Part shown: piece after piece, positions 2,343 to 26,421 of the stretch
Layout of the letters: each line of letters opens with the position of its first letter
How positions within the stretch are numbered: position 1 is the stretch's first letter
IMG/VR virus record: IMGVR_UViG_3300029268_000112
Coordinates: 1-26,421 of that record
DNA length: 26,421 nt
From: a virus
Reading direction: 5' to 3' (one strand)
Notes under the pieces: generated by a model
Databases searched by the model: none
What the model saw: the letters and a program-made list of their open reading frames with translations, nothing else
Told to the model about the DNA's origin: nothing
Program-made: the position numbers and the translations under genes

Positions 2343-3946
2343 CAGAGGTTCGCTCCACGACTAATTAATTCGGTAAAACTAGTACTTGTGTTTGTAATAA
2401 TTACATTCAACTGAATAAACTCGGCCATTCTAATAGGCTTAATGAAAATATCAACATGTAACTCATTCCTATCAATTGTAGCAGGAGTATTATTTGTAGT
2501 ATCACAAACTACTTTATATCCTTTGTCTCCAGTTTCAGTTTGAAAAGCGCCTTTTGAACCTAATAAATCAAGGTACTCTTCGCACATCGCTGTAATTCTG
2601 AACCTAGTTAATTCACTATTCGGCTCAAATACAAAGAATCTTAAAGAAGCTGCAATAGCTTTTTCAAGAACAATCAGAAGTCTTCGAACATTCAATCGGT
2701 CCAAAGCCGATGGTTTAGTCTTCTCCATCTTCTGACCCCATATAACATTACCGTCACCCCTGAATGTCTGTAATGGGTTTAATTCTGCTTCATATAATGT
2801 ATCTCTCTCGCCTTCAGTGAAGACCTGAGTTAATCCCAGTGCACTAGAAAGTATACCCCTGTTGAGACCGGCCGGAGCAAACCATGGCTGGCCAACAAAA
2901 TCGTTGTACGCGATCTGAGAACCGACAAATCCAGATGGAGGCAATTCAACAATCTTATCATTATACTGGTCATACCATTTTATCCATGGAGTATATAATG
3001 CGCAATAGCTAGAGTTGAAATTCTGAGTACTGTCTCTCCAAGTAACCATTGAAGATACCGAAGTCAATTGAGTATAAGGCATATCAAGAATTGCAACACA
3101 ATCTTTTCTTGATTCTGCTATTGTCTTCATTTTAGTTTGAACTGTTAACTGATCACTATTACCTTCTCCACCACCACCTTGCAAAAGCATCCTTACATCT
3201 ACATCATCAGGGTTGGCAAAGAAATCCCATCCAGTATCAATGTGAGTAGCAGTTACTGCTGAACCGTCCACTCCACCACCTAAGACTACAGCAACTGAAT
3301 TGGTTTTAGGTAATACATCAGTACCTAATAAACTATCAGCGACATAAATATAATCGCTATACCCATTGATTTTGTCTTCTAAATATTGCTGTCTGCCATA
3401 TCCGTCAACCTGAGTTTTTCTAGACACTGTCCATGTCTCGGTTAACTGAGCAGTACCATCACTATCCAATACATATACCTGAATGTCAAATTCATAAGAT
3501 GCTGCTACAACATTTGCAATCTTAATTGACACATTGGCATTCCATACTCCGGGATCTTTTCCGAAAATCATGAATACATTGTCGCTATCGGAATCATCAA
3601 CGAAAATCGGAGTTGATTTGCCGGTTCCTAAAGTAACATTAACTTCTGAACTATCCGATTTCTTTACTTCCATGCCGCCATACAGCGCACCATTAACTAC
3701 CCTCAAGCAATATAACCTATTACCGTTTTCAAGGAATGCTAATGCGGTATAGTGAAAATAATTGCCAGGAACTGGCTCACCATATTCATTAATGAAATCC
3801 TGAGTATTTGTAATTAATATTAACTGTGTAATATCTCCCTTAGCTGAATACCCTACTAAACCTGCAGTAGTAGTAGAAACGTTAGGAATTATATTGCTAA
3901 GATCGGTTTCTTTTGTATACACCCCGGGACTGATGGGAAAGCTCAT
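2342..3946 (-). CDS. Contractile tail sheath protein, T4 gp18-like
   Basis: 534 residues. The start FPISPGVYTKETDLS followed by VSTTTAGLVGYSAKGD is the classic sheath N-terminus (SPGV...E.D.......T..A..G...KG). The C-terminal domain has NPLQTFRGDGNVIWGQKM, LDRLNVRRLLIVLEKAI and FEPNSELTRFRITAMCEEYL, the conserved assembly region of myovirus sheaths, then IFIKPIRMAEFIQLNVIITN. The middle (about 90-260) is a variable domain. It surrounds the tube and shortens on contraction. An AAGGAGGAGTAAT site precedes the ATG at 3946. The stop overlaps the start of an endonuclease gene. Confidence 0.95.
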   Translation of the reverse strand: MSFPISPGVYTKETDLSNIIPNVSTTTAGLVGYSAKGDITQLILITNTQDFINEYGEPVPGNYFHYTALAFLENGNRLYCLRVVNGALYGGMEVKKSDSSEVNVTLGTGKSTPIFVDDSDSDNVFMIFGKDPGVWNANVSIKIANVVAASYEFDIQVYVLDSDGTAQLTETWTVSRKTQVDGYGRQQYLEDKINGYSDYIYVADSLLGTDVLPKTNSVAVVLGGGVDGSAVTATHIDTGWDFFANPDDVDVRMLLQGGGGEGNSDQLTVQTKMKTIAESRKDCVAILDMPYTQLTSVSSMVTWRDSTQNFNSSYCALYTPWIKWYDQYNDKIVELPPSGFVGSQIAYNDFVGQPWFAPAGLNRGILSSALGLTQVFTEGERDTLYEAELNPLQTFRGDGNVIWGQKMEKTKPSALDRLNVRRLLIVLEKAIAASLRFFVFEPNSELTRFRITAMCEEYLDLLGSKGAFQTETGDKGYKVVCDTTNNTPATIDRNELHVDIFIKPIRMAEFIQLNVIITNTSTSFTELISRGANL

Positions 3947-3957
3947 ATTACTCCTCC

Positions 3958-4425
3958 TTATTTGTTATTAAAAAATTTTAACCATCCAAATAAACCTTTT
4001 TTCTGTACCTTATCTATTGCTTGCTGCAAATTACTTTTTAACTTTATCTCAATATCAAACTCCTCCTTACGATTTTTCCCTTCCATATCTTGATACCTTC
4101 TATAGAATATAAGACGATTTGTAGCTAACTGGTCTATATTCCAAAGCCCATATAACTTATTTGCTTCAGCATTACCGACTTTATCCAAAAAGTAATCATT
4201 ACTAACTACTCTTCCCTTTTGGCCGTTTTCTGGATCATTATGTTTTATCTCAACGGTACCCCAAACGGTAAGTCTCAACAACCACGCTTCCAATGTTCCG
4301 TCAAAATCGCAAGGCCGCATATCTGGATGAGCTAGCATTTTACGCTCTTCTTCAGATTCTTCAGGAGTTAAGTTCTCCATTATTGATTCTTTTACCACAC
4401 TTGATAATTCTTCAAATAATCCCAC
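3958..4425 (-). CDS. Unknown protein between tail completion and sheath genes
   Basis: 155 residues, no family recognised. The N-terminal 35 residues are strongly acidic and helical (MENLTPEESEEERKM). The middle has DFDGTLEAWLLRLTVWGTVEIKH and a WNIDQLATNRLIFYRRYQDMEG segment; the C-terminus is basic and ends GLFGWLKFFNNK. By location between the gp15-like gene and the sheath it is probably a tail or neck assembly protein, which is inference. An AAGGAGGAGC site precedes the ATG. Confidence 0.6.
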   Translation of the reverse strand: MGLFEELSSVVKESIMENLTPEESEEERKMLAHPDMRPCDFDGTLEAWLLRLTVWGTVEIKHNDPENGQKGRVVSNDYFLDKVGNAEANKLYGLWNIDQLATNRLIFYRRYQDMEGKNRKEEFDIEIKLKSNLQQAIDKVQKKGLFGWLKFFNNK

Positions 4426-6226: not shown

Positions 6227-6630
6227 TTGGTAATCGACATTCCTTCCTTCACCATCTCTTCTACCAAAGCTTTAGTTTCTTTCTTCGAAAATTCCCGTGC
6301 ATCTATAACTCTGGTTATTACAGTAACTACAGAAGTAACAATTATAATTGCTATAGCTATCACACCTACAAAAGCCTTGATGTTTGCAATATTTACCTTA
6401 TTACACCCGGTATCATCTTTAACTGCTTCCATTAATTTACGGCAATCAACACATTGCTTGCTTACTTGTTCAACTATCTCTTTAGTAATACCATTATGAA
6501 GTCTAGTATTAATTTCTTTCATGGTCTCAGAAGCTGTTTCAAGAGAAGTAGTTATCTTCTCTAAACTTACAGCCGTTTTACCCATTACTTCTACAAGCGT
6601 AAATACTTCTTCTTTTGAGAGTTCACTCAT
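6223..6630 (-). CDS. Single-span membrane protein with coiled-coil region (possible holin-like or envelope protein)
   Basis: 135 residues. Residues 1-80 look helical and coiled-coil forming (LEKITTSLETASETMKEINT), with three Cys (C-V-D-C and DDTGCN). One clear membrane segment follows (residues about 84-108, IKAFVGVIAIAIIIVTSVVTV), then a charged tail (FSKKETKALVEEMVKEGM). A membrane protein is odd inside a virion assembly cluster; holin, superinfection-exclusion or membrane-anchored assembly roles are all possible. Its GGAG ribosome site lies in the last codons of the upstream GIY-YIG endonuclease, which overlaps it by 8 bases. Confidence 0.6.
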   Translation of the reverse strand: MSELSKEEVFTLVEVMGKTAVSLEKITTSLETASETMKEINTRLHNGITKEIVEQVSKQCVDCRKLMEAVKDDTGCNKVNIANIKAFVGVIAIAIIIVTSVVTVITRVIDAREFSKKETKALVEEMVKEGMSITK

Positions 6631-7213
6631 TTTTACTCCTAGTAACTCCTAAACTTATTAATTTTTTAGTATTTTCGGAATGTTTCCTACCGTACATAGG
6701 ATTATCTTTTCCAAATCGGTGAATTCCAAACATAGGATTCTTCTCACCACTTCGATCTGCCCCATACATAGGATGATTTTCGCCAGAGGTTGCCTTGCTA
6801 ATTTTTGCACGAGTTTCCAATGAATGCCTCTTTCCTAATCTTTTAATCCTTATCTTCTGTTTAGTTTCTTCGGAATGTTTTCTCCCGTACATACCATTAT
6901 TTTTACCATTAATATCTGCATAGTTTCCAGTATTACCGCCATCTCCGCCGTCAGATATATTATATAACCTGTTTTTATTAAATCTTTTTCTATACTCTGC
7001 TATGTATTGTTTTTCTAATGAATTAAGTTCAACTTTATTATTAGCATAGACTACAACCTCAAGCCTAAATGAATCTTTACCGTGCTTATTTAATGCTCGT
7101 TGTAAAATTATACCACTTCCATAATAATCAGAATCGAAATTACCTTTGCGTTTTCCTATATAGATTCTATTATTGCGATTATTTATAGTTTTATATATGT
7201 AACCGTAATGCAT
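6623..7213 (-). CDS. Free-standing GIY-YIG homing endonuclease (Seg-like) with NUMOD3 repeats
   Basis: 196 residues. The N-terminal GIY-YIG nuclease domain shows GYIYKTINNRNNRIYIGKR, then KHGKDSFRLEVVVYANN and the catalytic Glu in LEKQYIAEYRKRF, ending YNISDGGDGG. After it come repeated NUMOD3 DNA-binding units: GMYGRKHSEETKQKI, HPMYGADRSGE, NPMFGIHRFGKD and NPMYGRKHSENTKK. This matches SegA-type phage mobile endonucleases. Its 3' end overlaps the start of the next gene and supplies that gene's ribosome site. No group I intron core is visible around it. Confidence 0.9.
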   Translation of the reverse strand: MHYGYIYKTINNRNNRIYIGKRKGNFDSDYYGSGIILQRALNKHGKDSFRLEVVVYANNKVELNSLEKQYIAEYRKRFNKNRLYNISDGGDGGNTGNYADINGKNNGMYGRKHSEETKQKIRIKRLGKRHSLETRAKISKATSGENHPMYGADRSGEKNPMFGIHRFGKDNPMYGRKHSENTKKLISLGVTRSKNE

Positions 7214-14604: not shown

Positions 14605-14741
14605 TTAACTTAAACCAGAAATCGTTCCATGACAGAACGCGCCTGGATTAATTACCTTGTACGCAGCAGAAGAAAGAAATCCCTTCTGAGCCTTCAAGTC
14701 TGTAGCAGTAATCAGCGTAGGTGTAGTGAACAGAGGAATAT
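14605..14741 (-). CDS. Major capsid protein, exon 3 (native C-terminus)
   Basis: The last 137 nt of the capsid gene (2 nt of a split Tyr codon, 44 codons, stop). Joined to exon 2 they give CPYIPLFTTPTLITATDLKA and end GTISGLS. The join is placed by the intron 2 end: intron ...AAAAATG, exon ATATTCC, where ATAT can pair with the ATAT next to the guide sequence (P10). The same 44-residue sequence is also encoded, with other codons, at 15763-15899 directly behind exon 2. Codon style here (GC at 16 of 44 third positions) resembles the body of the capsid gene more than the intron copy does (8 of 44). The endonuclease frame in the intron reads into this exon in phase. Confidence 0.8.
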
Positions 14742-15621
14742 CATTTTTGTTACCATCACGAATGATGGGCTTAGTGATTTCTAGTTCTCCTAAGCTCCTA
14801 ATATCGCTACTAGGATCAGACTGTACCATATTCTCTTTCGAGATTTGTCGATTACAGTCGTTGAACCTCTTGTCATTATGAAAATTAACAATCTTTGTTA
14901 ACAAACTAACTCTATTAGAATCTACTAATTCGGATTCCCAAATAATAAGTAAATCATATCCGTGATCTTTAAAAAATTTTATTCGATCAAATTCAGACAT
15001 AATATTTGGAAATTTATTAGCATCATGCCAATAGTCGCCGAACATATCAATCATTTTGTTATTATTAATTGATATAATATCCGGATGTCTATTACCGACT
15101 AACTTTCCGCCTTTCGGATAATTTAATTGATAACAGCCAGGTAAAATTGATTCCAAAATATTAATAAGATAAACTTCTTTATCATTAGGGAAAGTCTTAG
15201 ATGCCCGAATTACATTAGTAATACGGGTAGTATTTTTAGCAAGCTTGCTTTTAATCTTAGCACGTACTTCCGGCCTTTTAGCTGGATTCTTATCCCCAAT
15301 CATCCTAAGAGGTGTATGTTCTGCACAATAAGTTGAATCACTATATGTTCTTATTTTGCAAACTGGACAATACTGCCAAGTATCTTTATACTCTTTCCCA
15401 TCCCTATGTAATATCATATTTGTTATCATTTCTAAAGAATGTTTCTTACCATAAAATGGATTATTTTCACCTGTTAATTTGTTAACTCGATCATCTGATG
15501 TAAATTTAGTTATTCCATATAATTTAGTAGCTTCATCTTCAGTTATTTTATGTTTTCTTAACAAATGTATCTGCAAGAAATCATATCTACTATCGCATAT
15601 AGGACAACTTAATTTACCCAT
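14605..15621 (-). CDS. Intron 2-encoded homing endonuclease (reads through into exon 3)
   Basis: 338 codons, of which about 293 are intron sequence and the last 45 (including the split codon) coincide in frame with capsid exon 3. The N-terminus is a C2H2-type finger (LSCPICDSRYDFLQIHLLRKH), followed by NNPFYGKKHSLEM (NUMOD3-like) and a CPVCKIRTYSDSTYC cluster. The nuclease part has HPDIISINNNKMIDMFGDYW and closes with YDLLIIWESELVD, as in Vsr-like PD-(D/E)XK homing nucleases. A GGAG site lies 6 nt before the ATG at 15621. The codons past about residue 245 also form ribozyme helices P7, P8, P3 and P9, so the true nuclease probably ends near there. Confidence 0.8.
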   Translation of the reverse strand: MGKLSCPICDSRYDFLQIHLLRKHKITEDEATKLYGITKFTSDDRVNKLTGENNPFYGKKHSLEMITNMILHRDGKEYKDTWQYCPVCKIRTYSDSTYCAEHTPLRMIGDKNPAKRPEVRAKIKSKLAKNTTRITNVIRASKTFPNDKEVYLINILESILPGCYQLNYPKGGKLVGNRHPDIISINNNKMIDMFGDYWHDANKFPNIMSEFDRIKFFKDHGYDLLIIWESELVDSNRVSLLTKIVNFHNDKRFNDCNRQISKENMVQSDPSSDIRSLGELEITKPIIRDGNKNDIPLFTTPTLITATDLKAQKGFLSSAAYKVINPGAFCHGTISGLS

Positions 15622-15899
15622 TCATAACTCCAATTTGGCTGCTGATTGACCGCACTAAAACATTTTTACTATTTCTAGTAGTTTTAGATACTCGGTTATT
15701 CCAGCAAGTTTCGACATTTTCTATATAAATTTCTTTATATAGCCGCATATATATCCCTTCCTTTAGGATAATCCGCTTATTGTTCCATGGCAAAACGCGC
15801 CTGGATTTATTACTTTATACGCTGCTGAACTTAAAAAACCCTTTTGGGCTTTAAGATCTGTAGCAGTAATTAAAGTACTTGTAGTAAAAAGTGGAATAT
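14742..15899 (-). ncRNA. Group I intron 2 in the capsid gene
   Basis: Core pairings are visible on the minus strand. P2 is a 9-bp stem with a GAAA loop (15721-15742). P3 pairs TGTCGA (15711-15716) with TCGACA (14846-14851). P4 pairs TTGCTG (15702-15707) with CAGCAG (15639-15644). P5 pairs CTAAAAC with GTTTTAG (15681-15687 and 15655-15661). P7 pairs GACTGT (14854-14859) with ACAGTC (14819-14824). P8 is TCTC-GAAA-GAGA (14832-14843). A P9-region hairpin CCATCA-TTCG-TGATGG lies at 14753-14768. The exon end CCGT can pair with GCGG (15743-15746), giving the U-G pair at the splice site, with P10 next to it. The endonuclease ORF sits in the P6 loop. P1 has an unusually long loop holding a recoded copy of exon 3. 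Confidence 0.85.
15763..15899 (-). repeat. Recoded copy of capsid exon 3 inside intron 2
   Basis: This 137-nt stretch continues the exon 2 reading frame and encodes the same 44 C-terminal residues as exon 3 (14605-14741), with one change: Ser instead of Pro at capsid residue 453. By direct codon comparison 25 of 44 codons differ synonymously, 18 are identical and one is changed. Both copies end in TAA and have equal length. It lies between the predicted 5' splice site and the guide sequence, in the P1 loop, so unspliced message makes a complete capsid protein. Confidence 0.9.
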
Positions 15900-16984: not shown

Positions 16985-18097
16985 CGTTCTGTAATCTCTT
17001 CTTTAGAAGAGTGTCGGACTATATCATCATCCTCAAAATATTTACTAATTCTATTTTGGGAGCTGGGCGCTATTTGAAACATTATTAGACCTTTCGTCTT
17101 CAGTTTCTAGTCTCTGCACCTTACAATTACTTAATTTATTGTCCATATTATCTTGTAATTCAGACAATAGAAAGGGTAACTGTCTTGGCTCAGGATTACC
17201 ATAAAAATAATTAAAAATATCTTTAGTATATAAACCATACATTAATCCATTAACCTTGCAATAATCTCTAAGAGCATTTAATTTCGTTATCGTTAACTTA
17301 TCATTTAATAAATGTGAACCTTTTATTTCAATTATTGCAATAGTTTCATTATTCACATTTAAAATTTTAAAATCTGGATAAGTATTATGCCCGTCATATG
17401 GAATAGCAAGTTTACTGCGCTGAACTATTAATAGAGAACCTATTCGGCGTTTAAATCCATGCAAAAATTCAAGTTCTAATCCAGAACCGTAGAATACATT
17501 ATCAAAATATCCACGTTTAACCTTTCCATAAAGTGATAATGAACTTCTAAAATCAATACCTTCTTGTGATGAATTCCATTCGTTCATCTTTATGGCAGTT
17601 CTATCATGATATTCCGGATCTGACCAAATCTTTGTCATTGATTTAGACATTTTTTCTCGTTTTAATATTGCCTTTTCTATTCCCATTTGCTCTTCATAAG
17701 ATCGAGAACTCTTTTCACTTAATTGTTTTCTAATTTGCAAGGCCTTCTGGATACCGTATTGCTGTTCAAAAGTTTTACAGCGTCTTTTATCGCCAGACAC
17801 TTTCCCACCAATCTTAGTAAATCCCGTTTCCATTACTGTTTTAATAAGACCGGCTCGTTGTTTAGCTATCTTCTTATTAGCGTGTTCTTCACCATATCTT
17901 TCAATATATGATACCCCAGCTAATAAATGATTCTGATAACTAATATGACAAGACCGACTACAAAACTCGCGTTTCGACGGTATTTCCTTTGAACATTGTC
18001 TACAAATATTTTTAACTTTATTTTCCATTAGGCTTCCCTGAATTCACCCAGTTATTAAAATTGGATTACTCCAATTTGGGACACAGTTTAATTACGC
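16985..18097 (-). ncRNA. Group I intron 1 in the capsid gene
   Basis: The exon end GGGAT with the next GC pairs with GTGTCCC (18078-18084), forming P1 with U-G at the splice site. Exon 2 start ACAGTT (16984-16979) pairs with the adjoining AACTGT (18088-18083) as P10. P2 is AAATTGGA-GTAA-TCCAATTT (18058-18077). P3 pairs CTGGGTG (18045-18051) with CGCCCAG (17063-17069). P4 pairs TTCAGG (18037-18042) with CCTGAG (17189-17194), within the typical core strings TTCAGGGAAGCC and AATCCTGAGCCAAG. P7 pairs AGACTA (17108-17113) with TAGTCC (17016-17021), preceded by GTGCAGAGACTAGA. P9 is CTCTTC-TAAA-GAAGAG (16996-17011). A P7.1-like hairpin suggests a subgroup IA intron. Length 1113 nt, with an endonuclease ORF in the P5 region. 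Confidence 0.92.
17051..18028 (-). CDS. Intron 1-encoded homing endonuclease, PD-(D/E)XK type
   Basis: 325 codons. The N-terminus has an ICRQCSKEI...FCSRSC zinc finger, then RYGEEHANKKIAKQRAG-type helical DNA-binding repeats, ending with a nuclease domain with a Glu in GLELEFLHGF and the pair YPDFKILNV and AIIEIKGSH, a clear PD...ExK active site. The ORF begins within the P4-P5 part of the intron, and its 3' end is folded into ribozyme structure: GNPEPRQ is encoded by the P4-P6 core string and CKVQRLETED by the P7 region, so these last 50 residues are constrained by RNA. The weak ribosome site suggests low expression. Confidence 0.85.
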   Translation of the reverse strand: MENKVKNICRQCSKEIPSKREFCSRSCHISYQNHLLAGVSYIERYGEEHANKKIAKQRAGLIKTVMETGFTKIGGKVSGDKRRCKTFEQQYGIQKALQIRKQLSEKSSRSYEEQMGIEKAILKREKMSKSMTKIWSDPEYHDRTAIKMNEWNSSQEGIDFRSSLSLYGKVKRGYFDNVFYGSGLELEFLHGFKRRIGSLLIVQRSKLAIPYDGHNTYPDFKILNVNNETIAIIEIKGSHLLNDKLTITKLNALRDYCKVNGLMYGLYTKDIFNYFYGNPEPRQLPFLLSELQDNMDNKLSNCKVQRLETEDERSNNVSNSAQLPK

Positions 18098-18371: not shown

Positions 18372-21300
18372 TTATTGCCCCATTGCTCTAAAAGCGGAAG
18401 CAATTTGTTTAGATATTACTGATTCTTCAATCGGCTCGCCAACATTGATCTCGGTCACAGGATTAAAGTGTAATCCATTTCCTCTAATCATGTCTTGAAC
18501 CATTTCAATAAGTTTATCTACTTCCGATACTGACTTACATGATTCGAAAAGTGTTCGAACATTGTCAGGAAGCTTCAAACCCATTGTTTTGACCTTTGTT
18601 TCGGTATATGTCTTAACGAGCCCCATAGCGTGGGACTCTTTAAGCAATCTAATTTGCTTCTCATTTGATTCTTTAAGCTGCTTTATTTGATCTTCGATAT
18701 TCTTCAATTGTTTTTCTAATTTAGATTTTATTTCTTCGGCTTTTGCTAATGCAGAAGATTTATCACCTAATTTTTCATTCAATTCTTTTATTGTCTTCTT
18801 CGATTCTTCTAATTCCCCATGCTCTTTATGAAAATTAGCAGAAACTTTCACCAATTCCGCTGTTTTTGCATCCAAATGGGCAGATACGTCTCTTAGCTTA
18901 GAAGACAAATCTGAAACATCATGCGTATAATTTGCGGATACTTCGTTAACTCTCTTCTCTAATACAGTACCTAATTCAATTGCCTTATCCCGTTCGGCAA
19001 TTAGGATTGCTTCAGAAACTTTTGTTTTAGACTCATTATTAAAACCGACCCTTAATAATTCTTTAAAAAATGCGGGGTTTTCTTTCATAATTCTCTGCAT
19101 TTCTTCTTTATCTTTTTTATCTGATTCCTCATTCGCTTCCTTAGCCTCTACCGTAGTATTAACCGTCTTGATCTCGCCCTTACCGTCTTCCCTCTTCTCT
19201 TTGTACTCTTCGGCCTTCTTGTCTTTAATATCCTGTTTGTCGATAATATCTTGCTTGACAGTTTCAGGTGTTGTAATTGCCGCTTCATTCTTCTTTTCAT
19301 TCATATAAGTCTCGGCTCTCTTTAACGATTCTTTATATTCCCAAACCATTGTTGAACACTCTATAATTTTTTCTTGCCGTAAATCAATAACTATATCTAT
19401 CTTTTTGCCCATTTTCTTTTCTAAACTGTCAGTTATTTCAGATATTTGTCCTTGATAATCGGTAGTAAATACATTAGAATCTATTGCAACAAAAACATAA
19501 TTTTCAGGCATAAATATAATATACCCGCCTATTAAATACTTATCCTCTTTTTTATATCCTAATTCAATTAAATCCTTTTTGCCATCATAATATTCTAATT
19601 TAGCAGAGCCAGTATTATATACCCAAGTGCCAATAGGTAAAGCTCCACGTTGTACAATAGACCAGGACCTAGATAAAACGGTTTGTTTTTTCTGTTCATC
19701 AGTTAAGTCTTTAAAGTCTTCAGTTAATCCTACTATTTTAATATATGCTTGATTTAAAATCAGACTCTCACCTATCTTCATGATCTCAGCTTCCAATCCA
19801 CGTCTCTGAATTTCTTTCATCAGTGCATCGACTTCCTTGTTTAATTCTTGATGATCGTCAGAAGCCATTGATTTATACCTAGTTAATATCTCTTCATTGG
19901 ACAATTTGGAAAGATCTGCAGATTCAGTAATATCCTTTTTCTCTCCCGGCCCGCCAAATTCATTCTCTAATTCAGCTTCAGTTTTATCCACCAATTTCTT
20001 AAATTCAGCAGGACTGATTCCCCTCTTATCCGCATATTTCTTGGCCAATTCCGGATCGTCTGAACCTGAATTAATATAGTCAAGAATATCAGCCGGAACT
20101 TTCTTACCTTCCACCACCTTCGATTCCTTCATCAATGAATCAGGATAATGTTTAGACATTTTATTTTTGTTATTGGCCCAGAATAAATCGGCTTGTTTAC
20201 TATACTTGCCCTTCCACCAATTTGCAGCAGCAACATTCGCCTTATCTTCTGGCCATCCTAATTGAGATTGACATTCAGCAGATACTGAACCGAAATTATT
20301 ACCGCCGACTCTACCTGCTATAACACTTATTTGCCAAGCTTCTTTATCGGTCAAAACTAAACTCGCCTCTTCTACCTTGGCTTCAGTTACTACCATAAAA
20401 TCCTGAGCCGAATCGTCTGAATCTAATTCAACTATAACCTTATTACCGTCCGCTTTCATATGAATAATATGCTTATTGCGTAATTCCTTAAACGTAGTCT
20501 CATTTGTTTTAGCTTCATTCGACACCTTAGCTCCTATCCACTTTACCTTATTAGATTTGCAAGCCGGACAAATCATTCGATCGTTTTGATCTACTGAAAC
20601 TGCAAATATATCTCCATTCCATCCACAGTCAGGACAGAACATTTTGCAGCTTTCGTCTAACGATTCTTTCAATTCTTCTCTAGTTCGAGCAATAACCTTA
20701 GGCAATAACTCCTTCAGCAATAAAACATTGTTCTCAGGATATTTCTCCCCTATTACTTTAACTATCTCTTCATCAGTATTGCCATCTATCACCATGTCCT
20801 TTACGACCGCTTCAATATCGTCGTAAATACCTTCGTCTAACTCCTTTAATTCATCCTTTAAATCTTTGGTAATGGTTTTGATCTTCTCAGTATCATTGTT
20901 AATCTTTTGAATATCATCTTTAATGGCCTCATCGACAATTGCAGCATCACAGCATGAACTCTTGTCATCGCCTTGAGTTACTCGAGCCCCACATTTAGAA
21001 CAGACTTTGCCATGGGCGATCTTGTTGTCGTCGTTCTGATAGTCTTCTTTTACTTCAATTTTATTCTTTAATTTCCATAATTCACCCGATTCTAATTTAG
21101 AAATCTGACCATCGTTTTCAGCCTTTTCTATTTCATCCTCAATTACTGATAATGCCGGTCTATTTATATAATTAGGATTGGTAATCATATCTACTAATTC
21201 ATCGTATCTTCTGCTTTCTTTTACTTCGACTTCGTTAGCATGCTCACATCCGCCACTACACTTCTTTTCCCCTAACTTACATTTACACTCTTTATGCTGC

Positions 21301-21959
21301 TTGTCTATAGAAATATCTTCTTTCAGCTTGAGTGCCTTCTTCGATCCGGCCTTTTCTAATAAAGCAATAGCAACATTTTTATTTATAGCATGAGATTCAT
21401 AATTAGTCCGTACCGCTTTAACAATATCTTCAGGTTCAGTTTTAGAACAACTAGGATCCCCAGTGTGATCAACTGTAATAAATTTATATGAATCAGGTAT
21501 TACTCGACTATACTTCTCGCCCGATTCATCAACTTCTTCTGATAATTCACCATCGGCCCTAGTACTTGCTGGAACTTTTACGCCTGCTTCATGTAAAATC
21601 CAAATGAACTTTCCAGAATCTGTAGGAAGTATATCAAAATCAGCTTTAACCTCATTAGTAGATTCATCTATAAACATATTACTAATAACATGTGAAGTCC
21701 GATCTTTATCTAATTTAATTGAAGATTCGGCTGGATGCTCATGCTCGCCTAATATTTGTCTAGCCTTTAATTTACTTTGAAATTCGGGATCATTAAGAAC
21801 ATTATCCCAGACTTTCCGTCCATAAATCCGTTTATTAGCATTTTTTTCGTCAATTACACAAATAGTCCGACGAATTCTAGCCAAAATACCGGATGGCAAT
21901 TTTTTAGGATCGTTCTCTAAAATTTGTGTTTCATCTAAAATTCGTTCATTTAAATTCAT
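18372..21959 (-). CDS. Prohead protease fused to scaffold/core protein
   Basis: 1195 residues, several times the size of T4 gp21 (212) or gp22 (269). Residues 1-190 are the gp21-like serine protease: ICVIDEKNANKRIYGRKVW, RQILGEHEHP (catalytic His region, 69-76), TSHVISNMF and KVPASTRADGE (nucleophile Ser near 132). The middle carries three cysteine clusters (CKCKLGEKKCSGGCEH; VCSKCGARV...SCCD; FCPDCGWNG...ICPACK) and two unassigned ordered stretches. Residues from about 940 on are acidic and coiled-coil (LEESKKTIKELNEKLGDKS, EEIKSKLEKQLKNIEDQIKQ), ending in VISKQIASAFRAMGQ, like gp22 scaffolds. It would both form the core and, after self-cutting, mature the head. The ATG overlaps the upstream endonuclease stop (ATGA), with GGGAG inside that gene. 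Confidence 0.85.
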   Translation of the reverse strand: MNLNERILDETQILENDPKKLPSGILARIRRTICVIDEKNANKRIYGRKVWDNVLNDPEFQSKLKARQILGEHEHPAESSIKLDKDRTSHVISNMFIDESTNEVKADFDILPTDSGKFIWILHEAGVKVPASTRADGELSEEVDESGEKYSRVIPDSYKFITVDHTGDPSCSKTEPEDIVKAVRTNYESHAINKNVAIALLEKAGSKKALKLKEDISIDKQHKECKCKLGEKKCSGGCEHANEVEVKESRRYDELVDMITNPNYINRPALSVIEDEIEKAENDGQISKLESGELWKLKNKIEVKEDYQNDDNKIAHGKVCSKCGARVTQGDDKSSCCDAAIVDEAIKDDIQKINNDTEKIKTITKDLKDELKELDEGIYDDIEAVVKDMVIDGNTDEEIVKVIGEKYPENNVLLLKELLPKVIARTREELKESLDESCKMFCPDCGWNGDIFAVSVDQNDRMICPACKSNKVKWIGAKVSNEAKTNETTFKELRNKHIIHMKADGNKVIVELDSDDSAQDFMVVTEAKVEEASLVLTDKEAWQISVIAGRVGGNNFGSVSAECQSQLGWPEDKANVAAANWWKGKYSKQADLFWANNKNKMSKHYPDSLMKESKVVEGKKVPADILDYINSGSDDPELAKKYADKRGISPAEFKKLVDKTEAELENEFGGPGEKKDITESADLSKLSNEEILTRYKSMASDDHQELNKEVDALMKEIQRRGLEAEIMKIGESLILNQAYIKIVGLTEDFKDLTDEQKKQTVLSRSWSIVQRGALPIGTWVYNTGSAKLEYYDGKKDLIELGYKKEDKYLIGGYIIFMPENYVFVAIDSNVFTTDYQGQISEITDSLEKKMGKKIDIVIDLRQEKIIECSTMVWEYKESLKRAETYMNEKKNEAAITTPETVKQDIIDKQDIKDKKAEEYKEKREDGKGEIKTVNTTVEAKEANEESDKKDKEEMQRIMKENPAFFKELLRVGFNNESKTKVSEAILIAERDKAIELGTVLEKRVNEVSANYTHDVSDLSSKLRDVSAHLDAKTAELVKVSANFHKEHGELEESKKTIKELNEKLGDKSSALAKAEEIKSKLEKQLKNIEDQIKQLKESNEKQIRLLKESHAMGLVKTYTETKVKTMGLKLPDNVRTLFESCKSVSEVDKLIEMVQDMIRGNGLHFNPVTEINVGEPIEESVISKQIASAFRAMGQ

Positions 21960-24243: not shown

Positions 24244-24660
24244 TTACGCTAATGTTAAATCTACAATCGTAGCATTTGCTGCATATACTAATATAATAGA
24301 TGAAACTGCTGTAGCATCGATACACTGCTTGAACCCGTCTCCGGTAATCAAACTAGTTGCCGGAGTATTTGAAGCCGAATTGAAGAATACGTCTACCCGC
24401 CCAGTTACACAATAAATATCCAGATCTAAAGTGAAGTTTCCAGTAGGTACTGTAATTGTGTCTACTTCAGTATCGTCTCCAGTATATGATTCTGAAACTA
24501 TATTGCTATTACTTGCATATGGGGCATCTGAAGTCTTCGTTATCCCCGTAGGCAAAGGAGTTCTGATTGTCTCATATGTTTCCTTTGATTCCCCGGGTTC
24601 TATTCTTGTACTTCCGACTGTTACTACTGTTGCTGTACTGTTAAGATAGGTTGGACACAT
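24244..24660 (-). CDS. Small beta-rich virion protein, probable partner of the collagen-like fibre
   Basis: I choose the ATG at 24660 (MCPTYLNSTATVVTVG) because AAGGAG stands 6 nt upstream; a longer frame from 24687 adds nine residues inside the preceding endonuclease. The 138-residue product is beta-rich: STRIEPGESKETYETI, TITVPTGNFTLDLDIYCVTG, VDVFFNSASNT and ILVYAANATIVDLTL, the pattern of small phage surface or decoration domains. No family named. It lies 36 nt before the fibre gene. Confidence 0.65.
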   Translation of the reverse strand: MCPTYLNSTATVVTVGSTRIEPGESKETYETIRTPLPTGITKTSDAPYASNSNIVSESYTGDDTEVDTITVPTGNFTLDLDIYCVTGRVDVFFNSASNTPATSLITGDGFKQCIDATAVSSIILVYAANATIVDLTLA

Positions 24661-25606
24661 GTTCAACTCCTTCTTTATGAAATTCAATTAATTTTTGTTT
24701 TAATAATATTTTATCTTTTAACTCTTTTTCCCAAACAACTAAAGTTTTATAGCCATACTCACTATATTTTTGTAATCTATTATTATCTTTTTCTTCAGAA
24801 CCTGATATATTATGCCAATAATCTCCATAAAGCTCAACAATCTTCTTTTGACCGTTAATATTTATAAAATCAGGAAAGAATCCTCCTATCATAACTTCAA
24901 ACCCACCTACAAATTTGTAGTTACTAGGAAATAAATTATTTAGTATATCTAATAATTTTTGTTCTGATTTATTAATTTTTTTATTATGAGAACTAGCTTT
25001 AGTCATCATTAACATATGTTCTTTAGAATTAACTTGATTTGTTTTAGCTTCTTCCTTTTTAATTCCAGACATATTTTTACACACTTCATCTCGTTTTTCG
25101 GTATGTGACCAATGAGATTTGTCCCTCTTTGCTCGATATTCAGGACTTTTCCACATATTTAATCTGGCAATACTTCTATTCTGTATAGCTTCAGGAGTAG
25201 CATTACCAATTTTTCTTTTCTCTAATAATTTATCTCTTCGGATAGGATCAGACCATATTTGTTTCCAACCGAATAATTTATAATTTATAACACACAAATG
25301 AGAACAGAATTGTTGATCAGATCGCTTACCTATAAATATATTATTACATGTTAGACATTGCTTTTCTTTTATTTTAGATTTCACATTTTCTCTATAACAT
25401 TTTCGAGAACACACTTGTTTATATCCTTTAATTATATGAACAAATTTTGTAGAATTACCACATATTATACAACACCCATCTAATTCTTTCTTTAAGTATT
25501 TATCATAATAAACCCTAGAAGAAAGTTTATGCGTTCTCCATACATGTTTAGATAACCCTATTATAGTATTAAATTGTCTATTACATATTAAACATGTACA
25601 AATCAA
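24641..25606 (-). CDS. Free-standing homing endonuclease, Vsr-like with several zinc fingers
   Basis: 321 residues, with a TTG start supported by AAGGAG 6 nt before it. It opens with a C2H2 finger (CTCLICNRQFNTIIGLSKHV, then RTH), a CCIICGN...VCSRKC cluster and a CLTCNNIF...FCSHLC cluster, then basic helices with IWSDP and MWKSPEYRAKRD. The nuclease domain shows KSEQKLLDIL, FPDFININGQKKIVELYGDYW and TLVVWEKELKD, close to the intron 2 enzyme. Its end overlaps the next gene by 20 bases and holds that gene's ribosome site. Confidence 0.85.
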   Translation of the reverse strand: MICTCLICNRQFNTIIGLSKHVWRTHKLSSRVYYDKYLKKELDGCCIICGNSTKFVHIIKGYKQVCSRKCYRENVKSKIKEKQCLTCNNIFIGKRSDQQFCSHLCVINYKLFGWKQIWSDPIRRDKLLEKRKIGNATPEAIQNRSIARLNMWKSPEYRAKRDKSHWSHTEKRDEVCKNMSGIKKEEAKTNQVNSKEHMLMMTKASSHNKKINKSEQKLLDILNNLFPSNYKFVGGFEVMIGGFFPDFININGQKKIVELYGDYWHNISGSEEKDNNRLQKYSEYGYKTLVVWEKELKDKILLKQKLIEFHKEGVEHVSNLS

Positions 25607-25727: not shown

Positions 25728-26390
25728 TTATTCTTTCATTGATTCCTGAATCGACTTCAGTATATCTTTATTCTCTACATGAACTACTTTTCTCTTCGAC
25801 TCATATGGCTTCTTGTCGATCTTCATATTCAAATCATTAGCTAATCTTCTGATTTCGCTATCAGCACCTTCCCATGTTTCCCAAGCTTCAGAAGGAAGAT
25901 TGTCTACTACATAATCAGTTACTTCAGAATTCCCCTCTAATCCAGCCTTATGAGCCATTCTAACGAGCTCTTTGATCTTTCCTCTATACTGAGGGCCGAT
26001 CGTGCGAGCTTCTTTGATCTTCTTTGAATCTCTTTCCTTCTTGCTTAATGGAGTATAAGGATAAAGTGTTCCGGTACCTTTGTCGCCATCATCCACTTTG
26101 TCTTCCTTCTTCGCTTCTTCAGTAACTATATCAGGTTCTACAACTGGAGCTACTTCCTCTTTCTTCTCTTCTCCAGGAATACCAGTTATAGTACGATCGA
26201 TTGGTTGTACCTCAGGATTTACCGTCGTCACCTGAATTCCACCTTCTGTAGTAACGATGTTAGTTTCCTTATCCTCATCCTTTATTATTACCTCGACATC
26301 CTCTTGAACTTTGGTCTGAGCCTCATGTACTTCTTTTAATTTACTATCAACTAATTTAGCATATTTAGAAAGATCTTTTGTAGTTAACAT
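25728..26390 (-). CDS. Acidic protein related to the 472-residue head-region protein
   Basis: 220 residues. Residues about 26-62 (VQEDVEVIIKDEDKETNIVT, then EGGIQVTTV) match VKEDVDVTIKTEDKEVNIVS and EGGTQITTL in the gene at 8695-10113, followed in both by Pro/Glu-rich linkers. The C-terminal half is ordered: RTIGPQYRGKIKELVRMAHKAGLEG-type helices split by a Gly, then LPSEAWETWEGADSEI. The N-terminus (MLTTKDLSKYAKLVDSKLKE) is a helix with an LxE end, possibly a head-targeting peptide. Function unknown; a paralogous head-interior protein is the best guess. Confidence 0.6.
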   Translation of the reverse strand: MLTTKDLSKYAKLVDSKLKEVHEAQTKVQEDVEVIIKDEDKETNIVTTEGGIQVTTVNPEVQPIDRTITGIPGEEKKEEVAPVVEPDIVTEEAKKEDKVDDGDKGTGTLYPYTPLSKKERDSKKIKEARTIGPQYRGKIKELVRMAHKAGLEGNSEVTDYVVDNLPSEAWETWEGADSEIRRLANDLNMKIDKKPYESKRKVVHVENKDILKSIQESMKE

Positions 26391-26421
26391 TCCTTTGTCC
26401 TGTCCATTATAAAAACAAAAT

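Follow-up and report, generated by a model that had tools for sequence, protein, structure and literature searches.

Where does the major capsid gene of this uncultured T4-like phage start and end, and how much of it is exon? The window analysed here, a viral stretch of 26,421 nucleotides (IMG/VR record IMGVR_UViG_3300029268_000112), carries the gene on its minus strand, and plain open reading frame (ORF) calling gives an 86-residue product and a 439-residue capsid product. A sequence-only reading had attributed both products to a group I intron at 18097–16985 and had taken the 3′ end of the gene as simple. The coordinates of that intron are correct; the 3′ end, however, holds a second group I intron together with two copies of the terminal exon, between 15899 and 14605. 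We lean, with modest confidence, towards a model in which the gene contains two introns, the second of which tolerates failed splicing by virtue of alternative terminal exons, 3a and 3b.

On the evidence of sequence and pairing, the minus-strand segment 18097–16985 (intron 1, 1,113 nt) is a group I intron, subgroup IA-like with P7.1 and P7.2 present. Its P1 and guide sequence occupy 18102–18078, where the exon end GGGAU (18102–18098) and the first intron bases GC pair with GUGUCCC (18084–18078) over 7 bp, with a U18098·G18082 pair at the 5′ splice site. The 3′-terminal base is G16985, and a 6-bp P10 joins ACAGUU (16984–16979) to AACUGU (18088–18083). Besides these two helices and P2, P3, P4, P7 and P9, all of which the sequence-only reading had paired, P5, P6/6a/6b, P7.1, P7.2 and P8 were located as well (in each of the two introns, helix boundaries were first set manually from the sequence and afterwards located), and an equally good combination of P1 and P10 arose in 0.14% of guide-region shuffles with the exon ends fixed. 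Compared with the capsid-gene introns of two relatives, L030 and L032, P4 carries two compensatory pair changes, and the intron 1 site is empty in uninterrupted capsid genes of relatives. The Rfam search that the sequence-only reading had proposed as a check supported it in part: Intron_gpI (RF00028) matched 16995–17254 on the minus strand with E = 1.4e-6 for a 1.3-kb stretch and 2.9e-5 for the whole window, at a score of 33.8 bits that lies under the curated cut-off of 50 bits, a recognition threshold rather than a structural feature. The score is probably depressed because an endonuclease ORF of about 800 nt splits the core in P5, and the whole window gave no Rfam match at the gathering threshold. 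A helix-only descriptor scan for the group I core returned tens of thousands of matches and was abandoned as having no power.

Removal of intron 1 would restore a regular capsid protein. Exon 1 (18348–18098) encodes a putative propeptide up to Glu72, mature residues 73–83 and two bases of codon 84, and exon 2 (16984–15900) matches Gp23 (PF07068, E = 4.4e-31) as well as T4 gp23 structures. Joining the two completes codon 84 and gives LFETTDSSNIDFLG-I-QLPIIAAL against IFETTDSSAISFLGIQLPVIAAL, exactly as in eleven uninterrupted relatives; the closest relatives read IFETTDSSAISFLGIQLPVIAALLPS where the spliced window has LFETTDSSNIDFLG-I-QLPIIAALIPS, with no gap across codon 84, and the joined capsid also aligns through with more distant isolates. 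The exon phase and the joined gp23 protein of the sequence-only reading are thereby supported, as is its view of the 439-residue ORF as an artefact: the first 34 residues of that ORF do not fit the relatives, whereas the spliced protein aligns without a gap. The product fits the predicted gp23 layout, with a Gp23 domain and an (L/I)xE cleavage site behind an N-terminal propeptide. Cleavage after Glu72 (LFE/TT, the slash marking the cut), as proposed before, is plausible because this glutamate is an invariant column in the isolate alignment and because the upstream gene has a prohead-protease-like domain. The intron does not separate the propeptide from the mature domain, as had been claimed, since the splice interrupts codon 84, which lies in the mature part, 12 codons beyond the cleavage site. 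The gene upstream of the capsid starts with a Peptidase_S77-like domain (E = 3.5e-5, below cut-off); this 1,195-residue ORF (18372–21959), directly upstream, resembles a fusion between a prohead protease and a long coiled-coil scaffold, an arrangement also annotated in Maribacter phage Molly_1.

At the other end of the gene, the last exon is duplicated. When the record was searched with the capsid, the last 44 residues recurred at 14608–14739 with 98% identity, and the DNA repeat begins at 15899 and 14741, exactly the predicted splice points of intron 2 (15899–14742, minus strand, 1,158 nt). Exon 3a (15899–15763, 44 codons and a stop) directly continues exon 2 and would supply the capsid end of unspliced mRNA; exon 3b (14741–14605), in which this 44-codon end and its stop occur again, would supply that of spliced mRNA. 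The elements follow in the order exon 2, exon 3a, core with endonuclease ORF, exon 3b, with 3a interposed between splice site and guide sequence, where it would form the P1 loop. In the relative L032 (IMGVR_UViG_3300031576_000183), by comparison, the splice site is followed immediately by the intron itself, and there is a single last exon. The exon 3a stop and the bases following it (TAAAGGAAGGGATA, 15765–15743) resemble the start of the L032 intron (TAACGGAAGATAGGGG, 3687–3702), as if 3a had been inserted just ahead of the intron's original first bases. Plain ORF calling thus misreads the capsid genes of uncultured phages at both ends.

The segment between the two copies contains a group I core with P2 (closed by a GAAA loop), P3, P4, P5, P6, P7, P8, P9, P9.1 and P9.2, and its folding z values are −3.1 and −3.4. 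Rfam gave weak fragments only, the isolated 3′ half scoring 11 bits. L032 carries an ORF-less 312-nt intron (3687–3998) at exactly the codon of intron 2, CCCT/...AATG/ATATCC with slashes at the splice points, and the two introns have the core motif GGTTCAACGACTGTAATC in common. Of 36 core pairs compared between them, nine have both bases changed, one has a single base changed and one is broken, a covariation signal that is destroyed by sliding the pairing. This same-site intron and the compensated pairs argue that intron 2 is a group I intron at a site shared with a relative. The guide sequence GGGAUAUAUAUGCGG (15757–15743) would pair with CCGU/AUAU (15903–15896) to form P1 (CCGU:GCGG and AUAU:AUAU), in which the exon part is 4 bp and exon 3a would make up a loop of about 145 nt, and with 14741–14738 to form P10. 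A strict P10 has 4 bp, and P1 and P10 alone stand at a chance level of 4%. Within about 200 nt, no U other than U15900 is able to form 4 bp with the GCGG of the guide, and the repeat sets in exactly there. In an unconstrained fold of 15910–15743, P1 closes around 3a with a minimum free energy of −45.3 and a pair probability of 0.39; the probability was matched by 15 of 200 loop shuffles and the energy by one of 200.

How are the two terminal exons related? They differ at 35 of 132 bases and 26 of 44 codons, yet at a single residue (Ser/Pro454), whereas random changes led to a mean of 21 altered residues, with at least 14 in every one of 5,000 trials. Comparisons between phages of the clade show codons just as scrambled, but protein identity there reaches 88% at most, against 98% for 3a and 3b. 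Both copies share features confined to this lineage, such as an extra residue in ATD that no relative has. Near-synonymy and these lineage-only residues together argue for an origin of 3a and 3b in a single lineage and for constraint on each copy to encode the same protein. Exon 3b has capsid-like codon usage over its 44 codons and carries the proline of the family, whereas 3a, also judged on 44 codons, resembles the intron ORFs and falls outside every 44-codon window of exons 1 and 2. From the family proline and the codon usage we infer that 3b is the native copy and that 3a was carried, or long held, by the intron. As to a foreign origin of 3a, its codon usage is unlike that of the capsid, yet it shares the lineage-only residues with 3b. 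The near-synonymy could also predate a recent transfer, having arisen in two separate phages, in which case it would be silent on present use. The idea that 3a was recoded for compact folding or P1 closure was discarded: 3a does better than its synonymous permutations (2/200), but so do the last exons of six of 13 relatives (z near −2.4 or lower).

Each intron contains an endonuclease-like ORF. The 325-residue ORF of intron 1 (18028–17051) starts in P5, overlaps P4′, P6, P7, P3′ and P8 at its 3′ end, and is PD-(D/E)xK-like by motif (YPDF...IIEIKG); it matches phrog_15427, an endonuclease family (E = 5.8e-5), and a TnsA-like domain below cut-off (E = 0.001). The intron 2 ORF (15621–14742) starts in the P6 loop at 15621, and its frame continues into exon 3b for a total of 338 residues. 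It matches the DNA-binding motif NUMOD3 above cut-off (E = 2.2e-6) and phrog_22215 (E = 4.6e-8), with no catalytic domain match and a Vsr-like motif recognized by eye. Outside this phage, protein searches turned up no relative of the two endonucleases, and a PDB search gave none for either. A 44-codon ORF (15749–15618, minus strand), which spans P2–P6, has a good ribosome-binding site provided by the intron 2 guide sequence (AAGGAAGGG), and its stop overlaps the endonuclease start codon, so that the two may be translationally coupled. Elsewhere in the window, an endonuclease-like gene at 24641–25606 has a DUF559 domain and remotely matches the intron 2 ORF, and the gene at 6623–7213 encodes a homing endonuclease (phrog_314, E = 7e-44).

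In bacterial group I introns, ribosomes trail RNA polymerase closely and may enter the intron before it has folded; such translation commonly runs into a stop codon early on, and what it has made goes to waste. We propose that the capsid gene of a T4-like phage was invaded by two endonuclease-bearing group I introns with different consequences. Removal of intron 1 would be required for a capsid, its self-splicing through P1 and P10 joining codon 84. Removal of intron 2 would be optional, its 5′ end holding, as 3a, a synonymously diverged version of the last 44 codons and the stop. Ribosomes that leave exon 2 before the core exists would enter 3a and complete an intact capsid, whereas folding and splicing of intron 2 would lead to the exon 3b end and nearly the same protein, apart from the Ser/Pro454 difference. 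The penalty of failed splicing would then be lifted for intron 2 and not for intron 1, in a gene that has to yield large quantities of its product. Splicing in vivo, including self-splicing of intron 1, and use of both products are what we infer from the sequence. Whether a selfish intron has made its own splicing optional, with capsid produced from spliced and unspliced mRNA alike, we regard as an even proposition. If 3a is used, the waste from translation into an intron becomes functional capsid, and the locus would offer a clean natural system for studying translation versus splicing, since a single residue and many silent bases tell the two outcomes apart.

The same arrangement would arise if intron 2 were dead. 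In that case, insertion of 3a would have separated the 5′ splice site from the guide, all capsid would end in 3a, and the ribozyme, the endonuclease and 3b would be a relic or a free-standing element. For a capsid, the uninterrupted frame through 3a would suffice, P1 is weak, and the mRNAs of Glomus atp6 and cox2 lack the native copy (PMC3630166); yet intron 2 retains every core helix, P1 and the 3′ G, and exon 3b is intact, with capsid-like codons and the family proline, although a recent event could leave these features in place. We consider a dead intron 2 unlikely but deserving of weight. Conversely, intron 2 might always splice efficiently, with 3a a useless passenger left by recombination between an intron-bearing and an intronless allele. 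An intact core, intron-like codons in 3a and a 3b whose codon usage suits the end of a highly expressed capsid are all consistent with such a history, but even with 26 codons changed, 3a has kept its frame, its stop and all but one of its 44 residues, and we judge this account improbable.

More radical alternatives dispense with the introns or with the duplication. Plain insertions of endonuclease genes, with the capsid starting inside the 439-residue ORF, would agree with the lack of an Rfam match at the curated cut-off; a full core with covariation in both introns, the misfit of the first 34 residues of that ORF and the gapless alignment of the spliced protein make this very improbable. An assembly chimera might be suspected because the arrangement is known from metagenomic contigs only, but the 35 base differences are almost all synonymous, the copies start exactly at the splice points, and the arrangement is identical in two contig records; we give this explanation hardly any credence.

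The second of these records is a 92-kb contig (IMGVR_UViG_3300029286_001043) identical to the window over 26,276 bases, with the last 145 differing; the two represent one lineage, and the duplication has therefore been seen once. The differing end (26277–26421) has 73 mismatches, which may be strain variation in the gene at 25728–26390 or a contig-end artefact. Two adjacent genes, 489–1055 and 1058–1573, both match the tail tube family phrog_45. Capsid relatives in IMG/VR are about 41–58% identical over the whole protein, and the eleven uninterrupted ones are empty at both intron sites. A DNA search of a phage collection gave no match for intron 1 and the capsid gene and short weak matches only for intron 2; a distant-capsid profile was too diverged to be used for a collection scan, and a bacterial genome collection held no capsid relative. 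Intron sites in gp23 lie near residues 84, 94, 310, 442 and 447 and are occupied in four of about 15 phages read, which makes gp23 an apparent hot spot for introns in this clade. Other short stretches that look like group I introns occur in gp23 of the related uncultured phages L032 (2680–2950 and 3341–3672), L045 (3690–4001 and 4639–5001) and L030 (3707–4001), two of those in L032 being parted by a 15-nt exon. An apparent interruption near the intron 1 site in L046–L049 was set aside, as reading L046 and L048 revealed continuous, more diverged capsids.

Group I introns in capsid genes are already known, and intron 1 taken alone is a further member of this group. Mycobacteriophage LittleE has a group I-like intron in its major capsid gene, with splicing proven by RT-PCR and N-terminal sequencing (PMC3706429). 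It likewise bears an endonuclease and sits close behind the maturation cleavage site, whereas splicing is predicted here, LittleE is an unrelated phage, its LAGLIDADG-type ORF is on the opposite strand, and its terminal exon is single. In Bacillus phage SP-15 (KT624200), the annotation of gp23 likewise joins two pieces across an intervening endonuclease gene, but the insertion is mid-protein, at another site, and no duplicated exon was seen. The L032 intron shares with intron 2 the insertion site, a homologous core and covarying helices, but at 312 nt it lacks both an ORF and a last-exon copy. SIOphi and Twort orf142 show alternative splicing by phage group I introns through exon skipping (PMC11878797); there, as predicted here, one intron-bearing phage gene yields more than one mRNA, but exon skipping alters the protein, whereas the present alternatives would give nearly the same one. 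Our literature search, which covered sources outside subscription journals, found no exon duplication in a phage group I intron. A parallel is provided by fungal mitochondrial elements of Allomyces and Glomus (in atp6, atp9, cox2 and nad3), which bring a diverged C-terminus and displace the native one (PMC3630166). They too place an in-phase C-terminal copy beside the host gene, with an endonuclease ORF and the native end downstream, and their copy is identical or near-identical in protein. The present case differs in affecting a phage capsid gene, in the 98% protein identity of its copies and in its element, an intact group I intron with splice sites that would reconnect the native end; if 3a is used, it would extend to phages an arrangement that we found described only in fungal mitochondria.
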